Translations under genes and position numbers: made by a program
In this document: positions 3,300 to 58,200 of the stretch, in pieces
Layout of the letters: each line of letters opens with the position of its first letter
How positions within the stretch are numbered: the stretch's first letter is position 1
The notes under the pieces: generated by a model
Seen by the model: the letters and a program-made list of their open reading frames with translations, nothing else
What the model was told of the DNA's origin: nothing
The model's database searches: none
Assembly: GCF_037975245.1 (NCBI RefSeq)
Contig: NC_092580.1
Span: forward strand, 22,244,501 to 22,308,500
Length of the DNA: 64,000 bases
Direction of reading: 5' to 3'
DNA from: Apostichopus japonicus
Lineage: Eukaryota > Echinodermata > Holothuroidea > Aspidochirotida > Stichopodidae

Positions 3300-4780
3300 A
3301 ACTTATAATAACAAAGTCCACCACTGCATATTATTAATGCTTTATGCCCTACATCAGTAATAACTTATAAGAATCCTGAAGAAACCGAACAATTTTACCA
3401 AAATCTTGAAGATCTACTAAATACTGTCAATAAAAAAGAAGTAATTATTTGTGGTGATTTCAATGCAAAAGTTGGCTCATCAAATCCTTTCTTTCCTAAA
3501 CATATTGGAAAATAAACCACTGGCAATACTAATACTAATAATATATAATACCAAAATCTTGAAGATCTACTAAATACTGTCAATAAAAAAGAAGTAATTA
3601 TTTGTGGTGATTTCAATGCAAAAGTTGGCTCATCAAATCCTTTCTTTCCTAAACATATTGGAAAATAAACCACTGGCAATACTAATACTATGGTGAATTC
3701 TTAACAGACTTAATTGTACGTAACGATCTATACATATGTAATACATTCTACAAACACAAACTGGAGCATATCAACACTTATACGAGTAATTTTATACCTA
3801 ATAATCACAGAAACCCTATCAGAAGCCAAATTGACTATATCATAGCCCAATTAAACTTCAAATCTACTAATATCGATGCTCGAGCTTATAATGGCCTTCA
3901 TATTAACACCGATCACAAAATCATTATAAGTAGTTTCACCCTAAATAGCTCAACAAGAAGACAAATTTATCCAGTCAATAAGACTGTTGAAAGTAGTCAT
4001 TCCTGCCATCTTAAATCAAACAAAATTGACTATAATGAAAACGTAAATAATCCATTAAACGTAAATAATCCATTAAACTTTAAATCCATTAAATTTTCCT
4101 AGCTTAAATCCACCAACAACAAAAAGTACGTTTTAATAATACTGAAATAGCAAACTTATCCAAGAAACAAAAAGACATTAGACTCCAAATTGACAACTGT
4201 AAAGATATTGATGAAAAGAGAATGTTAAAAGTTAAAAGGAACAAAATAATTAAACAACAACATTTTCTAGTCAAAACTGCCCAAGAACAAAAATTAATTG
4301 ACCAAATTTCCGAAATTGAAAATTGTAAGGGTGACTCCCACCGTTTCTTTAAAGAAATAAGAGTAGTACAACAAAAAAGTAAGAGAGACCCCATTACAGT
4401 TAAAATTGGCGATAAACACATAGGAGATACCGACGCAAAAATTAAAGAAATCAGCAAACATTTCGAAAAGACTTTTAACTGCAATATCCCAGATCCCAAA
4501 CCAAACGTAGCAAGACTCCAGGAGGACGCTCCAGCAAAGGTTGCTTTAAGAGAAGCATTGAGACATATTGCATAACCAGTAGGAAGGCCCGTGACTACCT
4601 TGCTTGGAAAAATAAAGTCGCAATTTAAGGACGTTAACATTAACAATTTCGAGGAAGCAATAAGCCTTGCGCGAGATCGTGATACGTGGCGGAGGTTAAT
4701 CACTGAGCATATCGGATAGACGAGACTCAACTTACTATACTACTACGAGAACTACAATAACTACAATAATGGCTAACAGT
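3300..4780 (+). mobile_element. Broken RTE-like non-LTR retrotransposon
   Basis: The plus strand keeps pieces of an apurinic endonuclease domain: an NLYKNPEETEQFYQ stretch, then VIICGDFNAKVG, then NDLYICNTFYKH, then SQIDYII and a TDHK-like motif. An open linker of RT-proximal type follows at 4222-4575. The reverse transcriptase core is missing; the sequence jumps to a LARDRDTWRRLI C-terminal end at about 4645-4700, followed by a CAATAA-rich tail. Stops and a 153 bp internal duplication show that it is dead. The RTE assignment rests on motif style only. Confidence 0.75.
3396..3690 (+). repeat. Two-copy 153 bp tandem duplication in the LINE
   Basis: The segment from ACCAAAATCTTGAAG to ACTAATACTA occurs twice, 153 bp apart and nearly identical. 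It covers the GDFNAKVG endonuclease motif. The period is a multiple of three, but both copies end in a stop. Confidence 0.9.
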
Positions 4781-6505: not shown

Positions 6506-9500
6506 CTGGAAGAGTATAGAAACAGATCAAACATTGCATGATTGGACAGAATTCTACAGGGCCGGGGAAATTAGCTCGGTGATAATGGTCCTAAACTACT
6601 ATATGGGCATGATGATAAAAAATATGGTATCAACAGCGAAGAGAAAAGAAAACTTCCAAAGATGATAAGGATACTATTAATTTACTGGGACAAGAAACAT
6701 GCCCGTACTTCCTATGCTGATTCCATTTGCAGCGTGGAACACGGTAACATTCAACACCACGAAAGTCAGAAATAGTGCATTGGGATTTGGGTTGACCCTA
6801 ATATCAAGACGTTAACCCCCCTCTCGCCCCAACCTAACCCCACCGCATACTCCCCTCTCTCTGCCTTTTGCTAAAAGTGGTAAAAATGAACTAACCTTGA
6901 GAAACACAAACACATCTTGGAGAGGTTTTTGTCTTCCGCTGTCATTCATCTTAGCGGTAGTTTGTCTAGTGTTGTTGATTTCTCGGACAGTATGGACGAA
7001 AAAGAAAACATTACAAGCCATGCATACCGCTAACGGGATCGCGATCCCATAGAAGATCCATTGCGGATCGGAGATCCAACAAATGAGACTGTTGCCATAT
7101 CGAATCGGTGATTCATCTTGAAGATAAAAATGTAGAGAGGTAAATGGAATTATCACGACCAGCGGCAGGCCATAGCATACCGAGAGATATTTGAGCAGAC
7201 GACATTTGCCTTCTCCCATTGAGTGTGTCATTGGCCTCCACGCAAAAGCTTGATCCATGTCGAAACCTATAACTGAGGTGGTTGTGAATGTTACGAGCCA
7301 TAGATAATGCGTTGCTATAGCTACAGCAGAACAGAAGATCGTCGAATAGGTTGGTAGTGCAAGAACCAAAGAAGATGCTTGTGAGAGGCTTAAAAAGAGA
7401 CAAAAACTCACGGTCAATCTGTTACTTGCAGTCCGTCTTAGAGATGGAAATAGCATGTATATCAGTATAGTACACCATAGGCAAATGACAGACAGGCATA
7501 TACCTACAGTGCTGATTATCGCTTGAGTATGGTCATTGACGTGTTGTCGATCTTTATCTGTTAATACCACAGCCCAGCCGTTGGTCAACACCGACGAACA
7601 AAGTTTCAACAAGCCGTTATTTAAAAATCGATACTCCGACGAAAGAATAATAACGTTTTCGTTGGTGACATGTTGTAAAGCTGCTGTCCCATTCAACGAA
7701 ATTTTATGGAACTCTGAAGCATTGACCTCTAAAGTTGGGCACCTCAAATCGTCACAGAAAGAAGCCTCTTTTGAAACGTCTACTTTGCCATGGTCGTCAA
7801 TAGAGACATCGACCAAAAGATAAACATCTTGTAAAGGTCGTGGCCCCTCTAGCCTTTGAAAATCAACCAAGACTGAACCTTCTTCCTCTGTGATACTCCA
7901 TGTTGCCTCTTTCCTGATAGGGTACGGCGAGCACCTTGACTTGATTGATCCGAGATCCTCGCATCCGGAATGGAAGCGAACATTTATGAAGTTACCACAC
8001 ACCTGTCTGAGACGAACAGAGGCAGACGGTTTTTCATCTTTCATACCAATTTCTCGAGTAAAGTCGTGAATATCTATATTCTGCAAGTTACGAAGTAAAT
8101 AATTTATGTTCGTCGAGGAACGATTCACCGAGAATTGTATCTTGAAGAAATCCTCATTATCGGCAGTATCACCATCATGAACATCAATATGAGTTGGATC
8201 CCACGTAACATGCGATGGGTCTGTCGTAGCGGTAGCCTTATCGTCTACACGGCGTAGGACATGGCTAGGAATGTGCAATGCATCGCTGATACAGACTTTT
8301 GAATATATATTCAATAAATCTTCAGAATCATTCAAAGAAGCTCGATAAACAGCTGTAATGATTGTGTCAGGGGTGGAGTTACGGTGCCTGCAATAGCTTT
8401 TATCTTCGGTAACAGGAGAGCAGCCCCCCATGCTAAAATAATATCCTTCAGGACATGACAGTGCGATACATTCCCCCCTGAATGGATCAAACACTTCTCC
8501 CTCACCGCAAAGTACCCCGTTCTCTTCATACTGTAAGCCTTCTTTCTCAAATCTAAGCCCACTACTAGAGCTAAAATCGAATACAACCGATAAAGAAACT
8601 ATTTTTTCCGGACCTTTAAACCCTAAGTCGTCGTTGCCTGCCATTGAAGGCGAAAGAAGCGGAGTCATTCCGAAGCAATATTGTCCGCGAAACCCATATG
8701 GGAAAGTTTTGTTGGGGTAGTTGTAGAGCACGCATTCGGGATTTTTGTAGACAGTACCATCACTTAGGCACAAAGGTGCAAGATTTGTTAAGCAATTTTG
8801 CTGTAATGTTGCCAGAGATTCATCAACAGTTATTGAGTGGAATTCGTCTTCACAAGCGGTTTTAACTTCTCTCGGGAAACATGGTAATACAGCAAGTCCG
8901 ACCGATCGTTTCGGAGGTTCTAGGTTCACCTGACATTCCGATCCAAGCCCGTTTAAAGTTCCTCGTATGTCATCTTCTAGATTAGCAAATCTGGATTCTT
9001 GGCAATTTATTTCCATTTTCCACGAGACCAATTGATCGATACCGACTGAATGGCATGTTGCGCAGAATCCATTACGGAATGTAATGTTTCCAGTCTTAAC
9101 GACGGGAATGATAGAGGGAGGGTCTGCGAACTCAAAAACGTTCTCGTCGAATAATGTAGAAACATCCTCACATTTTTGACGTATATAATCATCTTCCCAA
9201 GATGGAGGACATTTTCCAATCATATGATGTCCTCTCAAGGGTGCAGTTGTCTCCACACAGACGAAATCGTCAATAGTCCAATCACCCAGTGAACTTGATC
9301 GTTCCGTTCGATTTGGATGACTATTGAAGGTTGATTCGTCGTAGCAACAAGTTTTGAAATATACGCACGATGGATGGCACGAACATACGGGAGGATCACC
9401 GTCATGGTTACAGAGATGAACCGCAGGACAGAGATGGAAAGAGGTATCGTTGGATTCAAAGAAATACACCACTTCTGCGAAAGAAACAGATGGAAAATCT

Positions 9501-11105
9501 TTGAAGGACGCTGTACAATTTCTGTTGAGACAATTACGACGTGGATGCTATATGGATGGGTGGATGGGGGGGGGGGGGGGTTGACGGTGCATCTTTAGGT
9601 TCTATAGAGTAGTCAGTTTTATGGGTTGTGTAGAAGTCTTACGGTGAACAATGGGGTACTAGTTATTATAACTTAAAATACGCCCTCTAGACAGCTGGCC
9701 TTGTTTGTAGCTGTTGTAACTGGTTTGTATTGTCGTCAATTCTTCGAGCGTTGTGTAGGAAATTCTCCAACCGCCCGCCCCCCCCCCCCCCTTCGATGCG
9801 AAGAATAAATACTATGAAGTTACCCGTGTGGAGGTAGAGCAACATCGAAAATGCGGTGTCTTACTGTCTCCAGTCCGTTTGCCTAACTGAAGATGTTGAC
9901 TTCTGTGTATTTTAATCAGTTACGCTGCTTTACACAATGACAAAACTTGTGATAATTGCCTTTCGGTTGATCACACCATTAATAAGTAGGGAATTCAAAA
10001 AATGTGGAACTTGTTGAATGGCAGGAACTATAAAATAACACAAACAGTGTCTTCGCAATATAGAATATAAAATAAGAAAGAAAGTGGTTCCACTTTTCAC
10101 TGACTGTGAACACACGTTCTCCCTTTAAATCATAGTTAAATACCTAACATAAAGATCCGCATTTGTGCAAATTCCATTTTGTATGATAAAAAGATTGTTT
10201 TTGTTCAACATAAACGTTCTGACGTCATATTGCATGATTTATACAATACACATTTCTTCAAGTCTGAGCTAACTATATAAAAGTGTTATTTGTCAGTTGA
10301 TTATTACTCAGTCAGTGATAACGGCACGCGGTGACAAATAATCAATCAAATTGATTTCTTACAGAAGGAGAAAGAAATCACTTTTTAAAGTCATGCTCTA
10401 TATCTTACCATCTCAATAAATTGCACTAAAGTGGCTTATTGATTGAACTGTAAAAACATTCATGTTTTGTACCTAAAGTGGTTCGTTGAAAACGTTGGTG
10501 TATTTGATCAAAATCATACGCCTTTTACAGAGAACTTAATGAAAAGGAATTCTGGTCTGTGTAGGCGGACAGTAAGTTTTGTCAATATTACGTTTCAATG
10601 TACATGTGGGGAACAAACATTGATATAATATAAGTGTTAAATAAATAATAATAAAAAAGTGCGGTAAACGATGTGTTTAAAGTTGTCTTGAATGTTACGG
10701 CCTTAAATATCAACATTACACTATAGTAGGAATATGCTTTAATCTAACAAATTAACAGTATATAATAATGTTGGTGTTCCAGCCTTTGCGTTCTGTTCTA
10801 CGCGTATTACTAGACGCTTCAAGGTAGGCCTATACTGTTTGGATGTACACGATGATATAGGCCTTTAGTGATAGCTTGTACGATATACCTTGTGTAGGCC
10901 TATAAGGTCTGAGTATAAATTTCTTACCCTCATCTCCGTACCAGTCAAACGAAGAAAATGAAATCGTTCCCGAGCTGTAACTGTAGGAGTAGCTGTTGGA
11001 ATCATAGCCATAACCATCGAAACATTCATTTGAAAAGTAATCCTGGCAATGAACCGCAAGTAACGCGGTCGCATGCAAAATCAAAGTAAGAAAGAAATGT
11101 TCCAT
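6236..11105 (-). CDS. Somatomedin-B / class B2 seven-helix receptor, 3 exons (gene model)
   Basis: Joined from exons 11105-10928, 9474-6896 and 6505-6236; junction phases 1 and 0 agree, giving 1008 residues. Residues 1-21 form a signal peptide. Residues 75-103 carry a somatomedin-B-like cysteine pattern (C-x5-C-x8-C-x-C-x3-C-x5-CC). A long cysteine-rich ectodomain with several N-glycosylation sites follows, then seven membrane segments (TM1 near 711-735, TM5 near 867-888, TM6-TM7 in the last exon). The MGFTW of TM6 and NSMQG of TM7 are typical of class B2 (adhesion/Methuselah-like) receptors. Such SMB-bearing receptors are expanded in echinoderms, as I recall. I see no clear GPS cleavage motif before TM1. 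It should be a plasma-membrane receptor; the ligand is unknown. Candidate ATTAAA poly(A) signals lie downstream at 5978-5983 and 5819-5824. The family is secure, the ligand and subfamily are not. Confidence 0.85.
6896..9474 (-). CDS. Receptor exon 2: ectodomain and TM1-TM5
   Basis: An 859-codon open exon. Its 5' edge is an acceptor (pyrimidine-rich, ending TTTCGCAG|AA). There is no ATG at the open end, which shows that an upstream exon exists. It holds the SMB-like domain, the cysteine-rich ectodomain and membrane helices 1-5. It ends CTCAAG|GTTAGT in phase 0 after the third intracellular loop. The open frame continues past the donor into intron sequence and stops soon after. Confidence 0.9.
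10928..11105 (-). CDS. Receptor exon 1: signal peptide
   Basis: Starts at an ATG in good context (AAACAATGG). It encodes a hydrophobic leader ending near VHCQ, then a Tyr/Ser-rich acidic linker. The donor is GAGG|GTAAGA in phase 1, so the last G joins AA of the next exon to make a Glu codon. A signal peptide and matching phase are what the truncated N-terminus of the large exon needs. The pairing is inferred, not proven by a transcript. Confidence 0.72.
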
Positions 11106-17690: not shown

Positions 17691-17795
17691 TTACATCTTG
17701 GTTTCTTGCTCATCTACGTCAATCCCGTCATGGAGGGTGGCCTCCATAGCCTCTGCAGCCACGGGTACAATGCCATTCGTAGTATTGTGAAGCGG
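17691..17795 (-). CDS. SLC26 exon 16: C-terminal tail and stop
   Basis: Acceptor TTTGCCTAG|CCGCTT after a T-rich tract, phase 0. It encodes [19 protein letters not shown] and an acidic end (DVDEQETKM), then TAA. The frame and acceptor are good; tail sequence is not conserved enough to confirm by family. Confidence 0.82.
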   Translation of the reverse strand, partial: PLHNTTNGIVPVAAEAMEATLHDGIDVDEQETKM

Positions 17796-20700
17796 CTAGG
17801 CAAAATTAAAAAAACAACCGCATCAAATTTTATCCAACAATCTGATAGATACAAAGGAGATGAAACTGACAAATATATTTGTGAGTTCATTCTTTTCTCT
17901 AAGACTTCCTCTGAACCAAGATAATCTACTTATAAGCTTGTATTTGATCACATGCAGGGTATTTTGCTTGCATTGCTGTTTCAGACCTTAGAACTGTGTA
18001 CCATAAAGATGGTTCGCCACTGCCTGATGGAAGAAGACCGCAACTCAAATCGACTACCGACTGAGTTTGCGAGAAATAACAAACATCACTCCTTTCCAGC
18101 TGCTAGAATCACCATCAAGGGGCTCTCTATCCATACTTTTCCTACAATGCTATGAATTGTTTCTTACCCTGTGTTGTTGCCTCAAAGACGGAGAGGAATG
18201 TAGGACAGCGTCGTGAACTGTAACAAACATCTTATCTAAACCAATCGTGTCCATGACTCCACTCTTTCTTAAGGTCTCCAGTACACTGCCTGAAATTCAT
18301 TGAAAAAGGAGAACGTGAAAGATTAAGCTAACTTTATGCTACCAACACTTCCAAGATTGAAGTCATCCTCATCCCAGTGAGTTTCCAGAGTCGATAGGTA
18401 TGTATTCTTGATAAAGCTCACGGTTCCAAAGTCAAGTATCACAGTATGAAACTATCATTAAGGACTAGGGCTCTTACCTCTGACGTTAGCGACCAGAACG
18501 TTGACGTTGATTGAGTCATACTCTGTTATGATAGTCTTCATAGTATTCATGCCGACGGTATCGATAAAGCTGACGGTTCCAAAGTCAAGTATCACGGTAT
18601 GAAACTATCATTAAGGACTAGGGCTCTTACCTCTGACGTTAGCGACCAGAAAGTTGACGTTGATTGTGTCATACTCTGTTATGATAGTCTTCATAGTCTT
18701 CATGCCGACGGTATCGATAAAGCTCACAGTTCCAAAGTCGAGTACCACGGTATGAAACTATCATTAAGGACTAGGGCTCTTACCTCTGACATTAGCGACC
18801 AGAACGTTGACGTTGATTGAGTCATACTCTGTTATGATAGTCTTCATAGTATTCATGCCGACGGTATCGATAAAGCTGACGGTTCCAAAGTCAAGTATCA
18901 CCGTATGAAACTATCATTAAGGACTAGGGCTCTTACCTCTGACGTTAGCGACCAGAATGTTAACGTTGATTGAGTCATACTCTGTTATGATAGTCTTCAT
19001 AGTATTCATGCCGACGGTATTGATAAAGCTGACGGTTCCAAAGTCAAGTATCACCGTATGAAACTATCATTAAGGACTAGGGCTCTTACCTCTGACGTTA
19101 GCGACCAGAATGTTAACGTTGATTGAGTCATACTCTGTTATGATAGTCTTCATAGTATTCATGCCGACGGTATCGATAAAGCTGACGGTTCCAAAGTCAA
19201 GTATCACCGTATGAAACTATCATTAAGGACTAGGGCTCTTACCTCTGACGTTAGCGACCAGAACGTTGACGTTGATTGAGTCATACTCTGTTATGATAGT
19301 CTTCATAGTATTCATGCCGACGGTATCGATAAAGCTGACGGTTCCAAAGTCGAGGATCACCGTATGAACTTGTTCTGGTTCAGATTCGTGGTTGGTTTTG
19401 CTGATTGTGGTGACAACTTCCTCTGCAGTGGGAACCTTTCCATTCTCCATGTCTGTATCAACCTAAGGTATTTAACAAAATATCACACATCGATCAAATT
19501 CACCCACAGTGATGGATCAAAACTCACGACTCAAAGAAGGAGAAATATTCCACGTCAAGTCAGAGAGCGATAGAAAAGTTATTCATTTTACCGGTCGGCC
19601 GTGAATATTTCACTAAAATATTCCAAATTATGCTATCCTTTGCTTTAAGCAAACTAATTAGAAATTTAAGAAAACGGCACGATCAGACACAGATGAATTC
19701 AGCACAATATTAATCCCAGAAGACTCAGCTTACATACCTGGATATTGAAAGGAGCTTGAAACAAACATATCAGATATTCACTTTTGTGATATGCAGGGCT
19801 CTCACAAGGGAGGGAACCCCCCCCGCCCCACTAATTACATCATTCCAGATTTTTGGATAACTTTTGAGATAATGATGAATTCTAACCATTAAACATGACT
19901 CTACCTCAAAATCTTGACTAATTTTCTTTTCTGAATGAGAAAAGAAATAATTGACTAGAAGATAACTTGTGAGCTATTTAATATAATTTAGATTTTTTCC
20001 ACTAATCTACACCTGTTGTAAAGCAATTAAACTCTCTTCTTCTTCTTATTCCGTGTTAAGACTCTAACAGACAAATAAATTCAATTTTAACCATTCTAAT
20101 AAGTCTGTGTGGAGGCTTTGTCCAATTATGATGCTGCACGTGATTTTACTTTTCAATCCAAATTTCACGTACATTTTGAGTAAAATCTGTAGACGGTACA
20201 TTCTTAATTTCTAAAACAAACCGATTCTTAACGAGTGGGTAAACCATGCCAAACTTAGTGCATTGTACAGAGGCATCATTAAATACTAATGCATGTTTTC
20301 ATCTCATTCGATATACCTGAGATGTCCACACCTCCACCGAAGCATGCAACCAAACAACCAGGCAATACTTGAGCTATCATAATTTGTGTAACAAATTTAA
20401 AGTCTCTAAATTTGGTCAATTATAACATGCTACGGTTCCTGCATTTTGAGATGCGATACGGGATACATTATTCCCTGCCACCAGCTTCACCAAGAAACTT
20501 AACACCACAACCTAGGTTTGCCACCTCCACCAGGAAATTAGACAAAATACAATACAGCTACACCAGACACAACACAGCTACAACCAACACAACTACACAA
20601 AACAAAAACACAGCTACACCAGAAACAACACAACTACACCCCAAACACATAAACACATTTACTATTACTCTATGGTATACATACGAAGAGTAGAGCATCT

Positions 20701-23700: not shown

Positions 23701-26700
23701 TGGTATATATCATTAACAGACAAGAATGTATTCTATGGAGATAAGTTTGCAAAGTGTTGATGTTCATAATTATATATGTCTTTGAATGTTGGCTTATGAA
23801 ACATATGACATCAGCAGGATAAGAAATAAGACAATTAAATCTGCATCCTTCTGAAGAAAGATGCCACCCCCACCCTCACAAAAAAAAAAACAGCAACCAC
23901 TAAAATATACTCTGATGAAAAAAACAACAACAGGATCTTTACCTTTGAGAGTTGACATAGTCGACCCCATCCAACAACTGCACTACTAACCTACAACTGA
24001 CTATAATAAAACATAACATTGATCATCGAGCTGGAAGGTAATTATTTTACAGCGCTAAGCAGCTACATGTGAATCATGGAGAAGTTTTATATTACTTACA
24101 CTTTGACATTAGGTGGTCGCCCAATTTACAATTTTTTATATCATTTGGGATTTTTTCTTTTTTTTAAAAACAATTTGGAAGAACATTTCGGACCAAACCA
24201 TTGACGGTTTTTTTTTCATGAATATTTAATGAGGAATGAAAAATAGTAACCTTTAATGGTATGAGGTAATGAAGAGGTCATAAATACATTACCTATAAAC
24301 ATAACATTATGTCCATCACCTATTTTTCTCCAATGACACATCAGTGTTGGTAGTAAAACACTTTCTCTTTGAGGTTGGACATAGACCAATAACTATAGAT
24401 TAAAACTCTATCAGTACTTAAGGAATTTATTTTGGTTTCAAAATTATAATTATAAATAAAAACAAATGAAATATATTCTGCAATAGACAATTCCACACTA
24501 ACACAAAAAAGTGTGACATTGCACTGCCAGGTGTCATGGAAGATTAAACAAAACTGTTCTTGAAATTTTGTATAGAGCAGTGCAATTTGTGATTCCGTGA
24601 AGGAACAACAGCTGTTCGAAAAGTCTACTTGTCGACAGAGTATTTATTCATTGTTCAATATGATAGACAAGCCTGATCTCAATGTATTAAGCAATCAACA
24701 CAATTAACCAATCCCATTGATGTACAGGTCTTCCTGTTTCAAATTTTTGGTCATTCCTAATTTCCTAACAAAAACGTAAACCTAGAATTTTTTTTTTACC
24801 AAATGGTTTTGTGAATTAGAGGTTAAAACCAACATGGGGATAACAAACAAAATCAATTTCATCTTCCTCCTGCATGACACAATTTCAAATTCCTACGTCT
24901 GGTCAGTCCAAAACGACTGGTTCGTTGGATCAAACGAGATGACCTATGACCTTAAAAACAACAAGTTTGTATCTGCCAAAGACAGACGATCAAACGTGAG
25001 ATGAAAGGCTGACGTTTGACCTATTGACCTTACCTCATTTGCATAAGCCTCTTTGGCCTTGACCGCCGCAGCCTCGGCTCTCTTTGCGAGTTTTGCCCGC
25101 TGTATGAGAATCTTGGGCGGGCTGACCTCTGTCTTTCTGTAGAGAAGATCCTTGATGTATCTGGCATTGCTGAAATATAACGGTGCCTGAATTCTAAAGA
25201 TTTTAATACCTGGCACCTCTTTGACCTGCAATTATACAAAAAGGATTGTAAAAGAAAAAAATTATTCACTTCAATATTGTCAATATTATTATCTAACATT
25301 TTCTGATAGACAAGAAAATTATGGTCATTTTAGAATCTGAGCCTGACTAATCATGTTTAGAAACATGGTAAAGAGTCCACTGATATTGAACAAATGTTCA
25401 AATACATAATTAAGTTATAATCGTCTTTTGTTGTTCCCCATTGGTCAAAGACCCTGAATTAGACCCAATTATGATAAAGGTTTTTTTTGATGAGGAGGGG
25501 GTTCCTACAATGACATTTGACCCCAATAGAACTTGATAGTAATCTTGTACTCATTAGGGGGATCTAGATACCAAGTGTGAAGTTCATCCAAGTCTTAACT
25601 GTCGCAATTTCTCTGGCCATAATCCAACTCGCACACTTTTTCCTCCAACAAACTGTATTTAACTGTTCCTAAACCATGCTTGAAGACCTATGGTTACAGA
25701 AGCTTCGAATACTCTGGCTCTTATCTCTGGAACAAGTAACCAGATCACATTCGAACATGCTCTAAACTTTCTACATTCAAAAGTCTACTTAAGACCCATC
25801 TTTTCACTTGCTCTTTTGTAAATTAATCTGCTTTCTTTGTAAAGCGCCATGAGCAGTGACTTTTGTCTACTGATTTGGTGCTATGTAAGTCTCATTTATT
25901 ATTATTATTATTAAATTTGGAGTTTATAGTAGTGTTTAAAGGCATTTTAAGCCTTTGCATTATGTTGACCTTAAATGGACATTTTACTCCCACAAATACA
26001 ACAGGCTACTCACACTCACTAAGATGGATTGTTTATATACATGTATGAAGTTTATCAAAGTTTTTTTTCGTTTTGGAGTTACTCTGTTTACCAGATTTTC
26101 AGACTTTGACCTCCTTTGATCTGAAATGATATTTGACCAACCCCAAACCCAACACTGTTCTTGTACTCTGAGATTTTGGACACACACACACATCAAGTAT
26201 GACATATAACCATCCTGCACCTTTTTGAGTTATCATGATTAGAAGACAAAGTGAAACATGTACATACATACACACATATACATTTGCTATCACCCATCTC
26301 ATAGATTTCTTAAGCTTCTAGGATAGAATCAAACAGTTAACTATAGTCTATTCTTAGAAAACTTGATCAGGGATGAGCATGGGGTAAAAAAAAATTCACA
26401 GAATTTTGCGAAGATTGCGGTGTAGGCTCCAGTTTGCGTATGCTACAGTGTGTTAGGATAATAGTTTTTGTCCCCGAGGTAGAAAAGAAATCACGGATAT
26501 TCCGCGTATTCGCGGAAAAAGCTCTAGCCTGCTTGATAAGGCTTCGAAAAGACATTGATAGGAAACCACCAAAGGGTTGGATTTATTTTATTACTGGCTT
26601 TTGGTTACTGTGTATTTGAAAAAAAAAAAAAAAAAGGAGATCTCGGCAAATTGTTCAAGTGTCGACTCACTATGTCAAACTGCTTCACGTCCTTATAAAT

Positions 26701-29700: not shown

Positions 29701-32700
29701 TTTAGTTTTTATGTAGAAACTTTTCTTCTACATTAAATAAATCAGGGAGATGACAGAGGTGTAGGAGGGGGTCAAAGACATCCTATAGACCACATTGATA
29801 GGGCTATTGCATGGTATGACTGGTGACATTAAAGACACCAATAGCTGGCTATCTGGGTGTATAGTTTGCAGTACAGTGCAAACACTTACAATTACGTTTC
29901 CTGTGCAGTGCTTACTACCCATGTATCTGTCATACATGCATCCCTTCTGTAATACACTTGCGCAAAGTTTTAAACCAACTTCAGTCCGAGATATTTGTGG
30001 AAAAAGAGACGTATGTTAGTCTGAATAAGATCTATTTGCATGTAGGATTATTGCAGAAGATTGCCAAATAACAAGAAACATAGATCTCTAGTGGTTGCTA
30101 AGGTACATTGGTCCATACCATCACTTACCCTGTTACCACCATTTGTAATTGAAATCTCAGGGAAGGCTAGTTTATAAAATGTATACACGTACCGAAGAAG
30201 AACTAAAATTTCTAAGATTAAGTATTTGTACAAAATACTTTAAACAGCTTTAGGTCTTGTCACCAGCTCCAATATTTTTAAATTTGAGTATTTGCAAAAT
30301 CGTTCTCAATTATAGAAAAAAATTAATAGAGAAAAACATACGAAATTGAAGAAGTTGTGCATGAATAATGTCATATTTTAGATTGATCATGTCTTCAGCC
30401 TTACATTTGAAGAATCATAAAAACTGTCATATCTCCCAAATGAAATAAGATTTTTCTTAGCTGTTTGGGGGAGTAGTTCAGGGGAGTTATCTCAATCTGA
30501 TGAGAAATCAATAATCATGTTTTTGGTTTGTGCCTCTTCTAAGTATTAAATTGGATCGATATTTTACCAAATCAACAAACACGGCTGTTATAGTACAGGT
30601 ACACCCGACAATTTTATTATAAAACACATCTTACCTGCGAAGTACACCCTGAAACTTCCTGAACCAGAGAACGAGACAGAGATGCCGTGTTTGGAAAGCA
30701 TTGAAATAAACTACCGACAAAGTTTGAGGCCCCATAAGCAAAAAGTTCCTGCAGGATAATAAAAATAAGAAAAAGAAAAATAAGAAAAAGAAAACATGTT
30801 TGTGATCCTCAGAGACAAGAAATATGTTATTTCTCCACTACTGTTCTGTTTTTCTTCATTACATTTCTCATTTTACGATGGTTTCCTTCCATCTAATTAA
30901 CAAACGTTGAATTTTGTCTGCACACTATTCACCTTCACAAAACTGACAGAGGTAACAGTTGACTAAGTAAGACCCATTGAAAAACATTCATCAAAATTGT
31001 CATTGAAAGTTGATGCACATTTTACTTTTTAAAATTCTTCACCGTCAAGGATCATGGTTGTGGTCAAATTGCAACCATCATGGTGTAAAGGAAATCCTAG
31101 TTAGGAAAAAAGGATGTCACAGAGTCTAATATCTTTCTTGCTTTTGAGAGAACAAATAAGGAAATTTAGGTGACGGGGACCAAGCAGAACCTGTTCAATA
31201 TGAATTATGCAGTGCTTTAACCATACAAAATTTGTTCAAACATTATTTTTTGTATATGGTTAATAAGAGAAAAAAAAAAACCCAATATTTTACAAATATT
31301 TTGAACCATTGTGTAAAAGGAGCTGGTTGTGTTTTTTTTAGTGTCAAGTCATATGTTTCCATTTATAAGAATAAACTGGCTTGTTAATACAATCCCCTCC
31401 CACTAAATATGCTATGTGAGTCAAATAATGGTCACTGATTTTAAAACTTCATTCAGCAGTTCAATGCCACAGTCAAAACCATTTTTCCGTCTATGAGACA
31501 TCTAACAGTTAATGTAACACTGTCTTATGTAAGTCTGGAATTAACTGTACACACAGAGGCACTAGAAAAGTATTTTGAAAACTTTGGAAGGCATTTTCCT
31601 TCTATGAGACATCTAACAGTCTTATGTAACACTTATCAATGTCTGGAATTAACTGTACACACAGAGGCACTAGAAAAGTATTTTGAAAACTTTGGAAGAC
31701 ATTTTCCTTCTATGAGACATCTAACAGTCTAATGTAACACTTATCAATGTCTGGAATCAACCCTACACACAGAGGAACTAGAAAAGTATTTTGAAAACTT
31801 TGGAAGGGCATTTTGTGGCCATTTTTAAGTCATATTTCTAGGAGCTATAAGTAATGTTATTGACAAGCTGAACTTGTCTTGTAACAATGTAAATTTTCAA
31901 GAGCAAGAACAGGCAAAAATTATTGTAGAAATCTACACATTTATTAGCATTCTCCACGTCTATTGGAATACTTTACCTGATTGGCACCAATTTCATAGTT
32001 GTGTTTCTTGCCAAAGATATAAGCCATCGAGACAGCGATGGAGAATGTAACGATAGCGATGACGAATGCATCTGATATGAGGTACGGCACATATTCAAAG
32101 GAAGGGAATGATGGCCCTGGAAGTCTGAATGTATTAACAAACAACAACAAAAAGTAAGAAAACAATTATGATAATCAGATTCAAGTATGGTCCAGAATCT
32201 CCAACCACATACGGTTTGGAGTTTACCCGCTATCCTCCCACAACAACTGTACTTGACTCCCACAACAACTGTACTTGACTCCCACAACAACTGTCATTGA
32301 CTCCCACAACGACTGTACTTTACAATGTCTAGAGCACTTGAAGCCTCTTAAGCACACTGTCTTCTCTCACTGCCCCCCGACCATTCCGGTCTACTGCTCT
32401 CCTTATCATTTTACTGACAGGCAAACCTAATGTTTGTGTCACTAAAATGCAAATTAATTTTTAATAAGATTTTTCCTTTTGTAAAGATAATGATCCTTAT
32501 TACAGCAAAATGACAGTTAACTGTCTCCACATTCCATTGCACTAATTTGGCTGTTTTGTGAAATGTGACCAGAGATCCCGTGCAATGTTCCTTAACTGAG
32601 CATTTTTGCCAGTTGAAGAAGCACCTAGATTCATTTTCTTACAAAGATAACCAATCTCTTACAAAACCTCCCTCTTGTACATTTTTGTGCATGGTTTGTA

Positions 32701-35700
32701 AGTAGCCACACCCACTTGTCAACTGTATTTAATTGTTACAGCCATTGTAACATACACAAAGTACTCATCTTGTAGGTAAACAAACAAAACCACACCCACG
32801 ACCTGATCCTGCCAAACAAATTGATCACTTTAGGACAATGTAAATACCTTCACGTCGAACTTACCCCGTAGGGACGTCTCCTACTATGGCTACCCCGAAT
32901 TTTCCATTTAAATCCAGAAAGTACGACACCAAGGTGCCCAGTACGATCTACAGAGAGAAGGAAATTAATGAGATCCCTCCTCAAAAATCGGTCAAATTAT
33001 GGAGCAGTGGTTGTTATCGAATGTTAACTTTAAAGTGATCATGTATGTGCAACAGGTACTGGAAGACAGTTTATTAACCATAAAAACCACATTTTTATCA
33101 TAGATATTAGGTACCTCAACGGACTTTACATTTTCACACAGCTTATTTATAGGCTTCTTAGTGGTATCAGCCTGGTTATCCAAAGCTGTACTAACCATTA
33201 GTTAACTCTACCCGTATCATGTACTCGATGACCGTACTTTCTGCACCGGGTGACTGATGTATATATTTAGTACCACAGTTAATTTCTAAGGGTATCCAGA
33301 TGCCACAAGACAACTTATCATGGCCAAGCAAAGTACCTGGTACTTGGATATGGTAGTACTAATCTTTATGTAGGTATGGATACTTGAAAACTGTGTTCAT
33401 ACCAATCATGCCACTGTTCATTACCAATGTCAGTGTTCATATCTTGGTCTATCAGGTAAACACAGATCTAACAGATATTGGGTACTTGAAGATTGTGCAT
33501 ATTACTAATAATTCTATAGGTCCTTGAAGACTGAATTTATCACATCTAATTCTAGAGGGCAAACTATACATATCAGGCACTTGCACACAATCTACGTATC
33601 ATGGCTGATTTTTTTTATGTCAAAGGGAAACTAAAATCTAACAATTGTTAACTAAACATGTATTAAGTGCTTGATGCCTATACTTACCACAGTTAAATCT
33701 ATCGGTTTCTAGTACTTGAATACAGTGTACTAAACACAGCCTAAACACAGCCTTAATACAGTAACTTCATTGTTAACAGGTAACTGAAAACAATATATTA
33801 TTCAATAACACCACATAAGTATTAAGTGTTTGATGCCTGTACTTACCACAACTAACTCTATAGGTATCGGGTACTTGAATACGGTGTATTTTGTCTTGAA
33901 TTTTTCTTGGACCTCCTTGATTACCACCATGAGAAGGATGGAGCATATAGAGACTATGATTTCTGTCGTATTACAATATCTGAGGTCACCGAAAAATGGA
34001 ATGTATTGCTGAAAAAGAGAAGATTCGGTCAAAAGTTGAATCACTAGATTTCCATTCAGTTCCACTCCTAATCATAATAATAATAATATTAGGCATTCAG
34101 CTACGCTATTCATGGTAAACCATATCACAGCGCTTACAAGTTATATTACCCCTGCTCAATGATAACCTGTCCCAGAGACAATCCCTCCAGGCGGCAGCAG
34201 TTATATACTGCGCCCATAACAAGATACCTCACAGGTACCCATTTAACCCCTGGATGGAGAGAGGCAAGTGAGATAAAGCATCTTGCCCAAGGACACAACG
34301 TAATGAACTAGGCAGGAATCGAACCAGCAATCCTTGGATCACGAGTCCGACGCCTTAGTCAATTGGCCACCATGCTCATGTTTCTAACTGCTTACATTTA
34401 TGTCATAAATATAATATATGATATTTGAAAGATACTAGGAGTAGAACTACTAGTTCTAGTCAGCGCAGTATGCCAAAAAGTAGTGAGCCAAAATGAGTAA
34501 CTCTTGGTAAAAAATTGTCCGACGTCTTTCAGGAACAAAATGGGCCGATGGAACGCAAATGTGATATTTTAATGTGTGGGGTGGGAAACTTCATGTACTC
34601 TCACTGCTGTGTGAAAGTACCATCTCACACATAGTCTATTCTATAATAATGTTATTTGCTAATGTTTTTCAAGATGAGTGCTCGGTGGTTTCAAGTAGGA
34701 GACGCGTAGGTATGTCAGGATGTAATCACATATCGTCATGGAGATACCTCTGTTTCCTCCCCCTGCTACTTCATCACTAAATGCGGACTTCAAACCCGAC
34801 ACATTTAGGATGTTTATTTTTACCATCCAATGGACTCCAGATGTTTTTAAGCATCCAATGTGGATTGAATCCATTTTAATACATTATGTACGAAAACATA
34901 ACCGGGTGTTTTTCAGAGGTATTGCCAGATACATCAGTGCATGTATTTACACTACATTTGCTTCATCAATAATCCATCATGCTTTGCAGTCATCAAAATA
35001 TGACTGTAATTATCATCCACTTTCTTATTAATACAAATGAGAGGTTAGAAAATATCCATTCTCAAGGCTGACCGTTGACCAAGGAGCATATTCCTCTCTA
35101 CATATATATCAAAACAAATGATTGATTATAATAATCATAATAATTATCAGCAGTTTTGTTTTACGACGCTTAAGTGACCACAAATGTGGGAGAAACCAGC
35201 AAGGGCTTATGGATTACAACTTACACGTCGGGTGGCTTCCAATTCAACATCTTAACTCAAATTTGGAATCTTTTAAATTCAGGAAGTCATTTCACATAGG
35301 ATTACTGTAGATTGCTCTTGGATGCAATACCTACCCGGCCAAGTATCGAAACCTGGAACCTCCCGATTGCTAAGCCTAATTGCTTCAAATGCCATCGCCT
35401 TTATCCACTAGGCCACAGTACCAGTCAATTATGCAACACCCACCCACCAGTACTGAAAATGGGCTGAATTGACCTAGCCGCCCACTTATTGAGCCAATGG
35501 ATTCAGTACATGTTTACCTACCCTCAGTATAGACAGAGGACCAGAGACATCTCCGACTGGTACCCCAAACATCTTATTAAACTGGCTGGTGAACACAGTG
35601 ACGCCTGCGCCAGTGGTGAAACCCCGGATTAAGGGCTCTGGAAGGTAATCGCTGATAATGCCAAAGTGTAGGATACCCAACACAATCTGTGCATGAGAAA

Positions 35701-38700
35701 GCAAAACCAGAAAATAAACTTGAATGCTTGTTATCATGCCATAATTCAGCTTGTTAGCTTTAACTGTTCAATTTGAAATTTTCTGAATAATAAACTAATT
35801 GACCAAGTTGCTTCATAGTTTGCTTTGTGGTGCTTCTTTGACCTTTGACCTTCTTTGACCTGGCATGCAACTTAATACTGTACATGGAACCGAAGAGACT
35901 GACTGGATGACACACTTGTTAGCGTTAAATAGAATTGTTAATTTATTGCTATTAAATGAATGAAATTCATCATGAAATAGAGTTTATTTCCTAATTCAAG
36001 TTATGGGGAAGATCATTTTCCCCATGCCTTCTTTTTCCACATTGCATTATAATTTATTTGCATAAAGGTGATCTAAAGATCTTGACTAAGACAATAGGGA
36101 CAACATTGGAGACAGCACTTACACTGTCAAAATACTGAGATTTTTTGCGTCTCAGTTTCTGACAAATATTGCTCAGCTTCTTGCTAGGATGCAAAGGAGA
36201 ATAATGGTGAAGGGGGTACAACTTGTTCAAACTAAAAAGACAGTTATTTATGCTTGACATGTCACCAAACCAACTGAGCATGACACAGTTTTCAAGGGAT
36301 TTTAAATGGAAAAATCCGATGGCTGACGATGATTTCATTGAAAGAAAATTGGTAGAACTTTCTGCATCTTAAGATCAATATCACATTTTTCATCATATTT
36401 TGTATGGCAACGATATGTTTTTTTTATAACTCTTGTGATAATTTGTGATTGCATCTGGCAACAGCTGTGAATGATGTCGTCATAGCAATTGAGCTTAAAA
36501 AAAAGTGTTTGTTGTTTTTCTTCATAAAGAGAAAATTATTAATATTTCTAACCAAAAAAAGGTGCATTTTTATTTATTTTTAATTTAAAATTCAGTAAAA
36601 GAAAACATTGAAGGATACTACCAGACCTTTGAGATGTAACATATCCCATGGATAAAAAAAAGTTTAAAAAAAAAGAGTGAAATAATGGGAAATTTTGTAT
36701 ACTTCTAATGATCTCTCAGGGTGATGTCACAGGCCACCTACTATGTTCAACTGTCCTTCATTCAACCATATCTCATATTAGGGAAATTTAATTGAGTTTA
36801 TGGATTTTTTTTTGGCCATTGACAGTGTGCAATATTTTTCTTTTTACATATGAGTGACACACTTTTTGCCACTAGGATATCCCTTTGTATGTTAACTAAT
36901 GACTGCAGGCCTAGACTTTCACAATTGTAGCCACTCGTTAAAGCATGCGAGATCATTAAAAAATCTACTTGAATTCCTTGAATTATTAACGCACAAAAAG
37001 CAACATGTGTCTATACTGGCCAGTATGCATTTATTTTCTACTGGCAAAATGGCAAAGTCTATAGTACACAGCCTTAATTTTTGAGGCATCGAATGTTCTT
37101 AGCAAATAATGATAACAACTCAACGCTGCTATTTTTTGAAGGTTGGCTCACAAAAGGTTGATCACCTGCTTAGTTATCATACTAACCATTGTCCCACCTT
37201 TGACTTTGCACTGAATCCTCAACGCTGATACCTATCTAGTACAAACCTATACAGTACAATTTAAAATTACACTCCCCCAGTTTTATCTAGACCAGCGCTA
37301 AGCAAAATAATTGTCTGTTACACGGCATCAGCCAATTGTGAACAAATACTGCTTATTTACTTAAAGATAGATTAATTGCCATATGCCCCTTCATCATGCA
37401 AACTTTTCAAAAGTGTTTCTGTGATGGTACCAGCCAGCTCTAATCTGCCCATCAATTTGAACACAAAGAAATGTTTACTTTTTTCCATCGGGCTTTTCGT
37501 TTACTTATGCATTCCTACCGTGCAGGCAGCACGGTCGAGCTTATTTTTCTGGTCTGTCTTTTCTGAGTTGAGCTCGCAGTATGTTGATACATAGTTTATC
37601 AAGTAAAGTGTTCTTGTAGCAAATTGCATGTATACTACTGTACAGTATTAAAGCTGTCTGTATACAACTCAGGGGCGTCGGAGCCGGTGCCGGACCAATA
37701 TTCACGGCGCAAAAAAAAAGAAAAAAAAAAGAAGTAGGACTAAGAAAAAAAATGGCAAAAGTAAAGAACCAAAATGAAACAAGCAAGTAGGCTAAATGTG
37801 ACTACTCTGGCATGGCAGGGGTCTTGTTTTCAAGCTCTGGAAGTGCCATTCCTGCAATCTGGGAGGCATTTTTTCAAAATTTTCTCCATTACGCAACGTG
37901 CCAACCATGGTGGGGGGAGCGTAGTCTGACCTACCAAACGTCCCCCCGATAATTATGATAGATGGCCACACTCTGATCTGCTGTACCAATCCCAAATAGC
38001 TTCCGACGCCCCTGCAACTGGTGAGATATCATCTCTCAGAAGAGTTGTTCATAACTTTGGTATGTTACTTATGTACCCAACAGTAGAAATTTAGAAAATG
38101 ATGCAAAAACAGTGTTGTAACTTCACAGCAAATTTAACAACAGTGCTATATGTTTCTATCACTACTGCCCATTAACCTAGACAGAGAATTAGAATCCAGC
38201 ATTATAAGGTATGTAACATTATGTCACTTGCGATCTTAATCTCCAAAAGATTAAAAATATCTCTAGAGTTGAGAGACTTTGTCGGGACTATTAAACAAAG
38301 GCTTCTACGCACAGGTATCCAACCTTTATCTCTGATTCCAAATCAAAAGCACCTTCAACTAAATTGGATGAAACTGACCAATCACAACTTTATATTTCCC
38401 CTCCTCTACACCACCATGGATTTAGTTCATTATATAGATCTATATGATGTGCAAGTCATTCCACAGTACAACTTTACTCTGGTTATATTTGTATAATTTA
38501 CACCTACTTTACTTTGAGGCAATGCAAAATAACACTCGGTTTTATTCAAGTACACAGGATCAGAGCAAGAACTTTGGGTAAACAAGTGCTCATTCTTGTA
38601 CGTCAAGTATTGTAAACCCTCTGAATAATTAGCTTTCAAAATGTACAGTACAATGGTTACCGACAGCCAAGGTACACAACGATCTTCACAGCTCCAGAGA

Positions 38701-48722: not shown

Positions 48723-49264
48723 CTTCTTATACTTTGGGGGACTGGCGCCACCATTTTCCATGTATACATTTTGTTTATTCTTTTTGTCAACGTTGTTGTC
48801 ATATGAACTTTGTAAGCATATTTGTACTCTACATACCTCACACGAGTGAGGTGAACAGAGCTTGAATCAACTTGAAACTTGAAACATAATAGAAGCCACT
48901 TCCGACTTGTCGCTTGCAGCAATTTGAAGACCAATAGCTCGCGCAAAAGCTTCACCCTACACTGCTATTTTACGTAGTGCCCAATTAATTTTCCAGATTG
49001 TAAGAAAATTTTTAAAAATAAATAGTAAATTAAATACACAGAATGGTGAGCCATTTCTAAGGGTATATGTATGCGGAATGTTTAACATGTTTTTGAAATA
49101 TGAAAGTAAAAAATGTGAATGTATCCCCCAGGCACCATGTATAATGGTGTTGTGTTACATGAACAATTATTAATCATGCAGACACTAACATTGGGTTTTC
49201 GATGATGTTAGCATGAGCAGTTTTCTTCATGAATCTGACGTAATGTAAAGTGGGTGTACATGTT

Positions 49265-49765
49265 TACAAAGATTTCACGATTTGACCTCTGATGACCCAA
49301 ATGACCTTTGACGTCCGTCAAAACCAATAGTCTTCTTTAACTCAATGTGGTACATCTAAACACTAAATTAGAGGTCGACCCAAGCTTCCAGTATTGAGAT
49401 ATCTTGATTACAAGATTTTCACAATTTGACCCCTGATGACCCCAAATGACCTTTGCCCTCCACCAAAAACATCAGACTATTTGTACTTGATGTGGTACTT
49501 CTACACACTAAATATGAAGTCTGCCCATACTTCCCATCTTGAGATATCGTGTTAACAAGGTTTTCACAATTTGACCCCTGGTGACCCCAAATGTTCTTTG
49601 AACTCCACCAAAAACAATAGGCTTCTTGTAGTTAATGTGGTACTTCTACACACCAAATATCAAATTGGTCTGACCTTCCCTTCTGGAGATATCATGTTTA
49701 CAAGTTTTTCACAATTTGACCCCTGGTGACCCAAAATGACCTTTGACCTCCACCAAAAACAATTG
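49265..49765. repeat. Four-copy ~145 bp tandem repeat
   Basis: Each unit starts near ACAAGATTTTCACAATTTGA, then CCCCTGATGACCCCAAATGA, CCTTTGACCTCCACCAAAAA, TGTGGTACTTCTACACAC and TTGAGATATC. GACCTTTGACCTCC repeats of this kind are common in echinoderm genomes, as I recall. Confidence 0.88.
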
Positions 49766-49867
49766 GCTTTGTACTTACATATATGAAATTGGTGATTCTT
49801 TAGAAATCACAACCGAGGACCTGGAATTCTTTTGTTCAAGTCCTCGGTCAGATAGAAAAACAAACGC

Positions 49868-52114: not shown

Positions 52115-52265
52115 CTTAGCGTCCATAGCCTAGGGGTTAGGGTGTCTGCATATAAAGCGGGAGGCCCAGGTTCGAATCCCGGTGGAGGCTGGAAGCTTCT
52201 TCACTGTTCAGGATTTTCGAACTCACTACGATTTCAAATTACATATTTATATAAATATATATATA
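52115..52265 (+). mobile_element. tRNA-like SINE, copy 2
   Basis: CATAGCCTAGGGGTTAGGGT, GCATATAAAGCGGGAGG, GGTTCGAATCCCGGTGGAGG, then the same body AACTCACTACGATTTCAAAT. It is better preserved than copy 1, with a near-perfect B-box. Confidence 0.7.
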
Positions 52266-53962: not shown

Positions 53963-55279
53963 TCATCGGTGTACAACAATTGCTCCGTATAAGGATGATT
54001 GTCTATTCATAGAAGCCCGTCGCCGCCTAAGAGTAAGACGGTTTCTTGACGGTCGTAACAGACACTGAGCGATAGCGTGACCGGCAAAGCAACCTATGAT
54101 CTTTCCTAGGACACCGAATGCAACGGCAAAGCTAATATGTAGTACACCCTTCCAGTGACCTTCCGATATCCACTTCTTGATCAACACGATATTCATGAAC
54201 AAAACGTGACAAAAATAAAAACTTATCGTTATTATCCCCTCCAGTAGAGCCTCCAAGATCCGACGATTCCTATCGAGCTCTTCGATTTTATGTTTACGAT
54301 ACAGATACAAATGCCAAAGGGTAATAGGTACGATCCCGAACAATGTTTCTGATGCAATTACAAAAACCAACTCGATCACCTCTTCATTCTTATTAATATT
54401 ATCATCGTTCTGGTAATCACAAAAAACGACGAATGCAACGATAACCGCTAACAAAATAACTCGAAGTAATAAAAAGAGCACTTTCATAAGCAGCCAATTA
54501 ATCTGTAGACTCTGTCGTTTACCAGTCTTAAAAAACGTTATTAGGTGTTCACAATTATTCACCAAAATATTGTAATTTTCCTCCAATAGCCTTGAGTTGG
54601 CACGATCAAGAATCAGTTTCAGAGGGTTTTCATTTTCGATCGTTTCATCGTACAATATTTTGTAAGCAGTTCCATTTTCTTGTTTGGTGAAATCGTAGTC
54701 ATCCGTAAAATGCACTTTTGCTCTCTCTGCACACCACTCTAGTACATCAAACTGAATGACGTCACATTTACCATTTCCTTTATTATTGCGAATAAGTTGG
54801 TGGTGCCACAAGGTGTAGGTCCGAACCCAAGCTATGTGGTCACCGGGGCGTAGTTCGTTTATCACGTTAGGATCGTGGTGTGGTATGTACCGACGATGTG
54901 GCATCCCCATAGACAGGCACGCAACGCCTGGTGAGAACTTAAATCTCGACGTTTTCTTCTGCAGAACGACAATTCGCGGATTGACACGTGAAAATCTGTC
55001 TGAGGCTTCGAGGTCGGTATCCGCTGTTTCAGTTTCGAGACAGCTAACTTCAACTTCAGATCCATGATCAACAATAACTGACCTATAATCCGTTAGATCG
55101 AGGTACTCCGTATCGCAGTTCACGCAACATAATCCGCGAGGAAGCAGGTTGGAGTGATCCCTATTATAAACACGAAATTTGTTCGGATGTTTGCAGCAGT
55201 CAGGTTTTGGGGTGTCTTTGTCATACTCGACTTCGCCTGCAACGTAGGTGAATCTTGGCCTTTCCTGCACTGAAATAAT
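53963..55279 (-). CDS. LRAT-like gene exon 2: LRAT domain and TM region
   Basis: A long open exon with no ATG at its 5' end. Two acceptors keep the same phase 0: GCGCAG|ATTATT (start 55279, used here) and GTGCAG|GAAAGG (start 55264), differing by five residues. It ends VVHR followed by TGA. Confidence 0.86.
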   Translation of the reverse strand: MISVQERPRFTYVAGEVEYDKDTPKPDCCKHPNKFRVYNRDHSNLLPRGLCCVNCDTEYLDLTDYRSVIVDHGSEVEVSCLETETADTDLEASDRFSRVNPRIVVLQKKTSRFKFSPGVACLSMGMPHRRYIPHHDPNVINELRPGDHIAWVRTYTLWHHQLIRNNKGNGKCDVIQFDVLEWCAERAKVHFTDDYDFTKQENGTAYKILYDETIENENPLKLILDRANSRLLEENYNILVNNCEHLITFFKTGKRQSLQINWLLMKVLFLLLRVILLAVIVAFVVFCDYQNDDNINKNEEVIELVFVIASETLFGIVPITLWHLYLYRKHKIEELDRNRRILEALLEGIITISFYFCHVLFMNIVLIKKWISEGHWKGVLHISFAVAFGVLGKIIGCFAGHAIAQCLLRPSRNRLTLRRRRASMNRQSSLYGAIVVHR

Positions 55280-58200
55280 CTGCGCGTGGATAGAATGAAT
55301 TATAATATCAATTGGGATCAATCACCCGGTGAATGTGAAAATAACTCTAGGTAGAAGTTTAGTTTTGATATTTCATATCGTCTAACATTATGACAACATT
55401 TAATGCTACGAACCCCCCCCCCCCCCCACCTTTCCCATTTGATATTCGAGTTGCCAAGCTATTCACATTAACAATATTATAAAAATCTGGGCTATACTCC
55501 TTAAAGGCTGAAACCCTCGGAAGCTGGCTTTAGCTCATCGGTACCAATATAAATGTTAATGTTCAAACAACTCAAGCAAAGTGTGTTCGTCTAAATGTAT
55601 ATAAACTGTAGAGCACCGTTTGGATGACACTTTAACACTTAATCACACAACTCTTAATAAAATGAGTTTTAACTCATTGTGTAAATATGTTAATTGAGGT
55701 CATAATTATGTTACGTTTCCTATTGGGGTTTCTGCTGCGTCAGAGAGGCTGACACTATACCTAAGTACAAGATGAATTAGCCCTGTCAAGTATGGTACGC
55801 GACTTGGACTAACATGGAAGTGGCTTTTAGTGGTCTGTACGAAATATCTTAAATTAATGGCAGAGAATGAAGTTAAAGAGAAAGTTCAAAACTTGTTTGA
55901 AACAGCTAAGAGTTTCCATCTTAACATCACCCCTAACCAGGGGATAGTGCTACATGAACCGTGAAGCGGGGGGGGGGGGAGGGGATAACATAAAGTTTCA
56001 GTCTATTTTCAGAATAAGCATATAACAACGTCACAGTGAATTGAAACAGATGGGAGAGAACGAATGAAATACCATAAATATTTGAACGAGAAAATAATAG
56101 TACCCTATATGAAACAAAAGACAATAGATGTTTCACTTCTGCAGTGCTCGTACTGGTTTAAGTACATTACCAATTCAAAGCATTGACACAACGTTTCTTT
56201 TCCATAAGGGCGATAAAAAAGACAATTTGCCAACATGTTTCCTAGTCGGCGTCCAAATGCAGTTTTGCCGTTATAGTAAGCGATATAAGATTGGTGGACT
56301 ATACGATTGTTTATTCGCAGCGGTGGGCAGAGGTGTAGGAAACCCCTCTAAAACCCCTCTAATAAGAAGAAAAGGATACTTATCGGGCTGCAAACAACTA
56401 CAAACACTTCCAAAAACAGTGGATGGGAAAAATTCCGAAAGTGGACGAAATCCGATCGTCTGCTCCATCTAGTAATACCACTCTATGATTGGAACTAACC
56501 AATCGTCTGCTCCATCTAGTAATACCAACCACTCTATGATTGGAACTAACCAATCGTCTGCTCCATCTTATACCACTCTATGATTGGAACTAACCAATCG
56601 TCTGCTTCATCTTATACCACTCTATGATTGGAACTAACCGATCGTCTGCTCCATCTAGTAATACCACTCTATGATTGGAACTAACCAATCGTCTGCTCCA
56701 TCTTATACCACTCTATGATTGGAACTAACCAATCGTCTGCTTCATCTTATACCACTCTATGATTGGAATTAACCGATCGTCTGCTCCTTCTGACCACTCT
56801 ATGATTGGAACTAACCGATCGTCTGCTCCATCTAGTAATACCACTCTATGATTGGAACTAACCGATTGTCTGCTCCTTCTGACCACTCTATGATTGGAAC
56901 TAATCGATCGTCTGCTCCATCTAGTAATACCGCTCTATGATTGGAACTAACCGATCGTCTGCTCCATCTAGTAATACCACTATATGATTGGAACTAACCG
57001 ATCGTCTGCTCCATTGAATACCACTCTATGATTGGAACTAACCGATCGTCTGTTCCTTCTTATACCACGTAATTCTGATATATTCTACAGGCTATATGCA
57101 CTTTTTGTCGAAGATCGAAACTATATTGATGAATTGTATTGTTGTTATGTAAAGGATTAGATGTTCTTCTCGATTCAGAGCAGATAATAATAATAATAAT
57201 AATGGTGTTGATGATGACGATGATGATGGTCGTTGGGACTATAGTAAATTTCTTAAGAAGTATGCACAAATAACAAAAGGAGTGTAAATGCTTACTAGCC
57301 GGAAATGCATCATATTGAAACATTCATCGATATAACAGAGTCATCATCTCTCCATGTTTTGTGAAAAGTTATGGAAATGCCTTAATTGGAACTATCACAG
57401 AGGAAAGAAACTTATTTTATATGCTAATTATTTACAATGCGATTATACGATTATCAATATTGGCGTTCACACATGCACCTGTCCCAGTATTATCCCCGCA
57501 CGCAGTGATTTTGTGCAGTAGCATATAAGTTAGGCAATGGTGGATTATATTTACCAAATCATACGTGCAGTATTATTCCTGTGACGTTGCTCACAATACC
57601 GTACAAAGGGTCAACAAATACCAATAGAAATACAGGAGCCGTTTCGACCAGGCCATGCCCCCCCCCCCCCTCCGACACTATAAAGAAATGCACACAAGTT
57701 ATTAAAGCCCTGGTAAATATGAAGCCGTAAGTAAGTGATTTGATGTATAAATTCAATTATACAGGCCCTACGTGGGTACAATACTTGATTTGATTTGTAT
57801 ATTCAATTAAAGAGGCATGCATTTTATGTACAATACTATGGTGTCAAGAGCGAAAGTAGCCTACTTGAAGTAAACAAACTTAATCTGAATTTCATCACAT
57901 CGAATACTCGCATATGATTGGATAATATATCTTCAATAGTATAACAGTAATTTACCACAAATATATATATATGTAGAGATAGACAGATAGATAGATATGC
58001 ATCAATGCAAAATTATGACTAGTGAATTTTAAAGCACATCATGATGGGGCTGATAAGTTTGATACGTGGAAATGCTACAAAGTTTTCAAAAGCACATTCT
58101 TAGCCGGGATTCTGGAATGTTCAATGAGACACAATATGTCTCGCAGTGAGGAAACACGCTTATAGTGTTGTATAATAATAGTGACATTTTGCATTTGAGC

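Follow-up and report, generated by a model that had tools for sequence, protein, structure and literature searches.

Intronic minisatellites and VNTRs consist of near-identical units that are arranged head to tail within an intron and end in a partial copy. Tandem duplication may also cross the border of an intron, and in the potato RdRp gene a duplication of this kind is reported, with support from RNA reads, to make a new intron (PMC4974935). The human UBC and VCX3A genes are presented as tandem arrays of dual-specific splice sites (PMC10809524). In addition, two papers on Dscam-type exon clusters describe near-identical tandem copies, single use in frame and short gaps (PMC6071210, PMC9013439), all of which have a likeness in the array that we describe here from Apostichopus japonicus.

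The window, i.e., the whole stretch of DNA analysed, comprises 64,000 nt of contig NC_092580.1 and comes from one assembly (GCF_037975245.1). Its minus strand carries an SLC26-type anion transporter gene, in which the two domains of SLC26/SulP anion transporter genes with a STAS domain are both present, on separate ORFs and in order. A Pfam search placed Sulfate_transp (PF00916, E 5.4e-12) on the ORF at 35486-35767 and STAS (PF01740) on two ORFs downstream of it (E 3.8e-06 and 1.2e-08). The latter of these two ORFs contains the STAS exon at which the array begins and also aligned with the chicken prestin STAS domain in the PDB (1e-08), while the C-terminal exons, when joined in frame, matched the STAS region of a prestin chain (3.3e-30). 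The reading frame of this STAS exon fits its neighbour exons in the splice-path model, and order, strand and phase suggest that the Sulfate_transp and STAS exons belong to one transcript. The exon numbers in Table 1 (13, 14 and 15) are those of the original prediction.

Table 1. Coordinates of the array and of the neighbouring SLC26-type exons in the window
Feature	Position	Strand	Remarks
Upstream STAS exon (exon 13)	25034..25225	-	ends ...AYANE, phase 0, donor GTAAGG; Pfam STAS E 3.8e-06 on its ORF
STAS exon (exon 14), 220 nt	19243..19462	-	acceptor CCTTAG, donor AGAG/GTAAGA; phase 0 in, phase 1 out
Unit 1 (final 126 nt of exon 14, then 27 nt of intron with donor)	19216..19368	-	
Extra unit 2	19063..19215	-	V to I near its end, common to unit 3
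Extra unit 3	18910..19062	-	D to N; 1 difference from unit 2
Extra unit 4	18757..18909	-	same 42 encoded residues as unit 6
Extra unit 5	18604..18756	-	most divergent; differs from each of the others at 7-10 positions
Extra unit 6	18451..18603	-	
Partial copy, 42 bp, without donor	18409..18450	-	departs from the units beyond about 42 bases
Six identical donor-spacer stretches, GGTAAGAGCCCTAGTCCTTAATGATAG	18452..19243	-	153 bp apart
Downstream exon (exon 15), end of the STAS domain	18168..18289	-	joined-exon PDB alignment reaches its VHDAVLHS stretch
Last coding exon	17691..17795	-	ends ...EQETKM stop

The original prediction was that the end of a STAS exon had been amplified in tandem together with its splice donor, and the 153-bp period and the six identical donor-spacer stretches confirm that this amplification is real. 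The unit occurs six times, once at the STAS exon and five times in the following intron, and is then followed by the 42-bp partial copy; Tandem Repeats Finder reported the array at 18410-19368 with a period of 153, 6.3 copies, 96% matches and no indels. The observation made at 18409..19462 stands, with the strand corrected to minus, the exon set at 19243-19462 and the partial copy added. Similarly, the five extra units, announced as exact copies of 153 bp, all have this length but are not identical in sequence, since pairwise differences among the six units range from 1 to 10 of 153 positions (mean 5.0 over 15 pairs). Each unit comprises the last 126 nt of the STAS exon, i.e., 42 codons where about 40 had been counted, and 27 nt of intron in which the GTAAGA donor is included, rather than a donor plus 34 bp of spacer.

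The donor AGAG/GTAAGA (the slash marks the splice point) is intact in all six units, and its first intronic bases are located at 19242, 19089, 18936, 18783, 18630 and 18477. The 27-base pattern of donor plus spacer, counted from the last exon base, is identical in six of six units, against a mean of 0.00 matches in 100 shuffles; no further match with up to three mismatches was observed elsewhere in the window, and the exact spacer motif gave 0 matches in viral contigs. The exonic part is open in every copy, as had been claimed for the copies as a whole, but the spacer carries TAA-TGA-TAG in the STAS frame, where the translation reads ...KSPSP followed by three stops, so that reading on past the exon's donor stops.

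In terms of structure, the array has the head-to-tail, near-identical units in one intron that define intronic minisatellites, with the first unit overlapping the exon end; unlike in ordinary intronic minisatellites or VNTRs, its unit consists in part of coding sequence and contains a splice donor. The potato RdRp duplication resembles the array in that the duplicated segment takes in a stretch of exon together with a stretch of the intron next to it, with splice signals copied ready made, but it was one duplication at the acceptor side, whereas the array lies at the donor side and has five extra copies (PMC4974935). UBC and VCX3A likewise have an AGGT at a constant position of every repeat unit; the UBC units, however, are coding monomers retained in variable number in the message, whereas the array units contain stops and offer a poor context for an acceptor (PMC10809524). 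Among the matches listed from open PMC papers, nothing was found on the array itself.

Other features were also observed in the window. Two tandem arrays, at 31483-31814 (108 bp x 3.0) and 32235-32320 (22 bp x 3.9), lie in introns of the SLC26-type gene and flank an SLC26 exon at about 32.0-32.1 kb, which is part of neither, and long tandem arrays are positioned at 49259-49777 (145 bp, 3.6 copies) and 56452-57068 (44 bp, 13.6 copies). A tandem duplication at 3396-3690 has a period of 153 too (1.9 copies, 100% identical); its sequence holds an open frame, EVIICGDFNAKVG, which we take to be retroelement-like, and the period common to this duplication and the STAS array is probably due to chance. 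On the minus strand, an uninterrupted open frame of 911 aa at 6812-9547 contains a secretin-family 7TM domain (PF00002, 2.4e-19), and an open frame of 452 aa at 53963-55321 contains an LRAT domain (PF04970, 2e-07). Rfam and tRNA scans of the window gave tRNA-like matches only, at 52.1 and 34.3 kb, of which the tRNA-Tyr-like sequence at 52118-52191 on the plus strand (anticodon ATA) is possibly a pseudogene or a SINE head.

To assess the consequences of the array for the reading frame, every splice path between the upstream exon and the exons downstream was modelled, with the native acceptor, the six donors and the six gatAG sites where units adjoin as permitted sites. The frame is kept to the normal end in 6 of 233 paths, namely the one with the normal exon and five in which a single unit takes its place; the remaining 227, among them every exon extension, every addition of units and the skip, break the frame or hit a stop. 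When any AG in the stretch was accepted as the acceptor of a single exon, 22 of 236 choices were open, i.e., those six plus 16 shorter forms whose start lies within the STAS exon or a unit. In these models, the extra units would not lengthen the STAS domain, and at most one of them would replace the exon, with loss of a 31-residue linker. Cassette addition and exon extension by the units are ruled out by frame in the modelled paths, which contradicts the idea that the units feed extra STAS sequence into the protein; exon shuffling, as proposed, fails in its simple form, and only one-for-one replacement, which needs a weak acceptor, keeps the frame.

The strength of this acceptor was estimated with a matrix built from 11 acceptors of the SLC26 gene that were picked by eye, at least two likely acceptors, near 35.69 kb and 26.85 kb, being left out. 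The in-phase unit acceptor gatAG scored -3.45 (80th percentile among 1622 decoy AGs), which is below each of the 11 gene acceptors scored (the weakest reached -1.08 in a leave-one-out comparison, and the native STAS-exon acceptor 1.94), yet it is the best-scoring AG within the unit. The AG/GT of the unit, taken as an acceptor, lies at the 33rd percentile of decoy AGs under the gene's own matrix and has a G at -3 and no clear pyrimidine tract. Competing RNA pairing of the Dscam type was considered and rejected, as the real pairing in the neighbouring introns is no better than that of shuffles: docking-selector pairing of the donor-spacer with the upstream intron was equalled or exceeded by 19 of 20 shuffles, and that with the 115 nt after the array by 11 of 20.

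We regard it as likely that the array is a young and largely passive intronic minisatellite, which was born from an exon-intron boundary and is spliced out from the first donor. A segment that starts within the STAS exon and, beyond its donor, takes in the beginning of the intron would have been duplicated in tandem, and unequal exchange or replication slippage would then have multiplied the resulting 153-bp direct repeats to six, with the copies exchanging sequence to some extent. The spliceosome would still define the exon by its native acceptor and the first donor and splice it to the following exon, the array would be carried as intron with the protein unchanged, and the five surplus donors and the weak acceptors would give rise to at most low-level, mostly non-productive transcripts. 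The geometry of the array and the near-identity of its copies argue for a minisatellite, as do the other long-period tandem arrays of the window, including the two within introns of the SLC26-type gene, and the published boundary-crossing duplication (PMC4974935). We infer passivity and the use of the first donor from the fact that the native acceptor with the first donor is one of the six frame-keeping paths, and from the score of gatAG below the gene acceptors and the failure of docking-selector pairing to exceed shuffles, both of which count against exon use.

A wholly neutral intronic array should not show a synonymous skew, and the coding-like pattern of changes among the copies argues against a wholly passive history. 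The 13 changes comprise 7 synonymous and 6 non-synonymous ones, with none in the spacer and none at second codon positions, whereas random placement would give 2.7 synonymous, 8.0 non-synonymous, 2.4 spacer and 3.6 second-position changes (P = 0.0076 for at least seven synonymous changes and 0.015 for zero second-position changes, the tests of the change pattern, here and below, being post hoc, one-sided and uncorrected). Among the five intronic copies alone, 6 of 12 changes are synonymous (P = 0.027); without unit 5, the figures are 3 of 5 for the intronic copies (P = 0.085, not significant) and 5 of 7 with the exon included (P = 0.008), and the comparison of the exon with unit 5 gave a P of 0.035 for the skew. 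Either the copies are sometimes translated, or variants from the working exon have been spread by exchange, or the skew is due to chance. Variants arising in the working exon and spread by exchange would fit a passive array without exon use; such exchange does not by itself explain the change-free spacer, although the spacer is not significantly more constrained than the coding part (P = 0.07). None of the five extra copies has a stop in its exonic part, a frameshift or a donor loss, and 85% of simulations were without any stop, indicating that stop-free copies are expected at so few changes.

Exchange between copies is also suggested by three site pairs (7/16, 16/31 and 31/41) that fail the four-gamete test; pairs 16/31 and 31/41 depend on the partial copy, the second of them on its very end, and repeated mutation could explain all three. 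Together with the small number of differences between units, these failures fit the earlier view that the amplification is recent or that exchange goes on among the copies. Neighbouring units are not more alike than distant ones, 52% of orders being as good as the real one. Unit 5 encodes K where the exon has N, and K is also present in the displayed prestin alignments; an older, more ancestral status of this copy was considered, but we do not insist on it, because its F and V are unlike most displayed prestins. The first residue of the STAS-exon stretch in unit 1 is V.

The coding-like changes are among the points in favour of a different reading, which we consider unlikely, namely that the units are mutually exclusive exons and that the upstream exon joins either the normal exon or one unit (gatAG/TTT, phase 0 to 1), yielding STAS variants without the linker. 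Exactly five unit paths are in frame, one per unit, with 0 multi-unit paths among the 233; a combination of any two units shifts the frame, and a productive message would have to contain just one. The five units are of equal length and phase, with 127 nt from gatAG to donor against 220 nt in the native exon, and gatAG, as noted, is the best AG that they contain, although a phase match is expected by chance in about 1 of 3 cases and the acceptor scores below those of the gene. Four distinct peptides are encoded by the five extra units and reach 27.0-31.8 bits against Pfam STAS (cut-off 22.6; 32.1 for the exon stretch), and the junction falls where the protein of the array gene and prestins align poorly; the products, however, are nearly identical, which leaves little to select between. 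The gap of 26 nt from a unit donor to the next acceptor is probably too short for an intron but bars only neighbouring units. Unlike the Dscam-type clusters described in the two papers, the units are without an exon start and its acceptor, and the docking-selector pairing was not found in the comparison with shuffles (PMC6071210, PMC9013439). More doubtful still is a scenario in which slippage supplied five spare STAS exons, phase and the 26-nt gap impose single use, and selection keeps them open.

The surplus donors might also act as a brake, in that use of a later donor would lead into the spacer stops and to degradation, and copy number would tune transporter output. The six donors are identical, and extension past the first one does meet the spacer stops, but an exon that ends at the first donor is the shortest (220 nt), and exon definition should favour this donor; we regard such a brake as decidedly improbable.

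We hold it to be very improbable that the array works as a set of dual-specific AG/GT sites like that of polyubiquitin UBC, in which removal in multiples of 153 nt or recursive splicing would restore the normal message regardless of the site chosen. The UBC case has been described (PMC10809524), and AGAG/GTAAGA with its AGGT core is present in all six copies; with dual sites allowed, 112 of 1351 paths are open, yet they encode only five distinct proteins, the normal one and four single-unit forms. The context of AG/GT as an acceptor, i.e., the G at -3, the lack of a clear pyrimidine tract and the rank among decoys, argues against this use. An assembly artefact, with inflated copy number or stitched haplotypes, could be suspected from the near-identity of the copies, but it is very unlikely, as each full copy has its own combination at the 12 variant sites and a distinct partial copy closes the array.

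The array, in which a single exon is followed by a row of six identical donors, is a natural counterpart of experiments with duplicated donors. In addition, the array may represent an early stage of tandem exon duplication, before the copies diverge.
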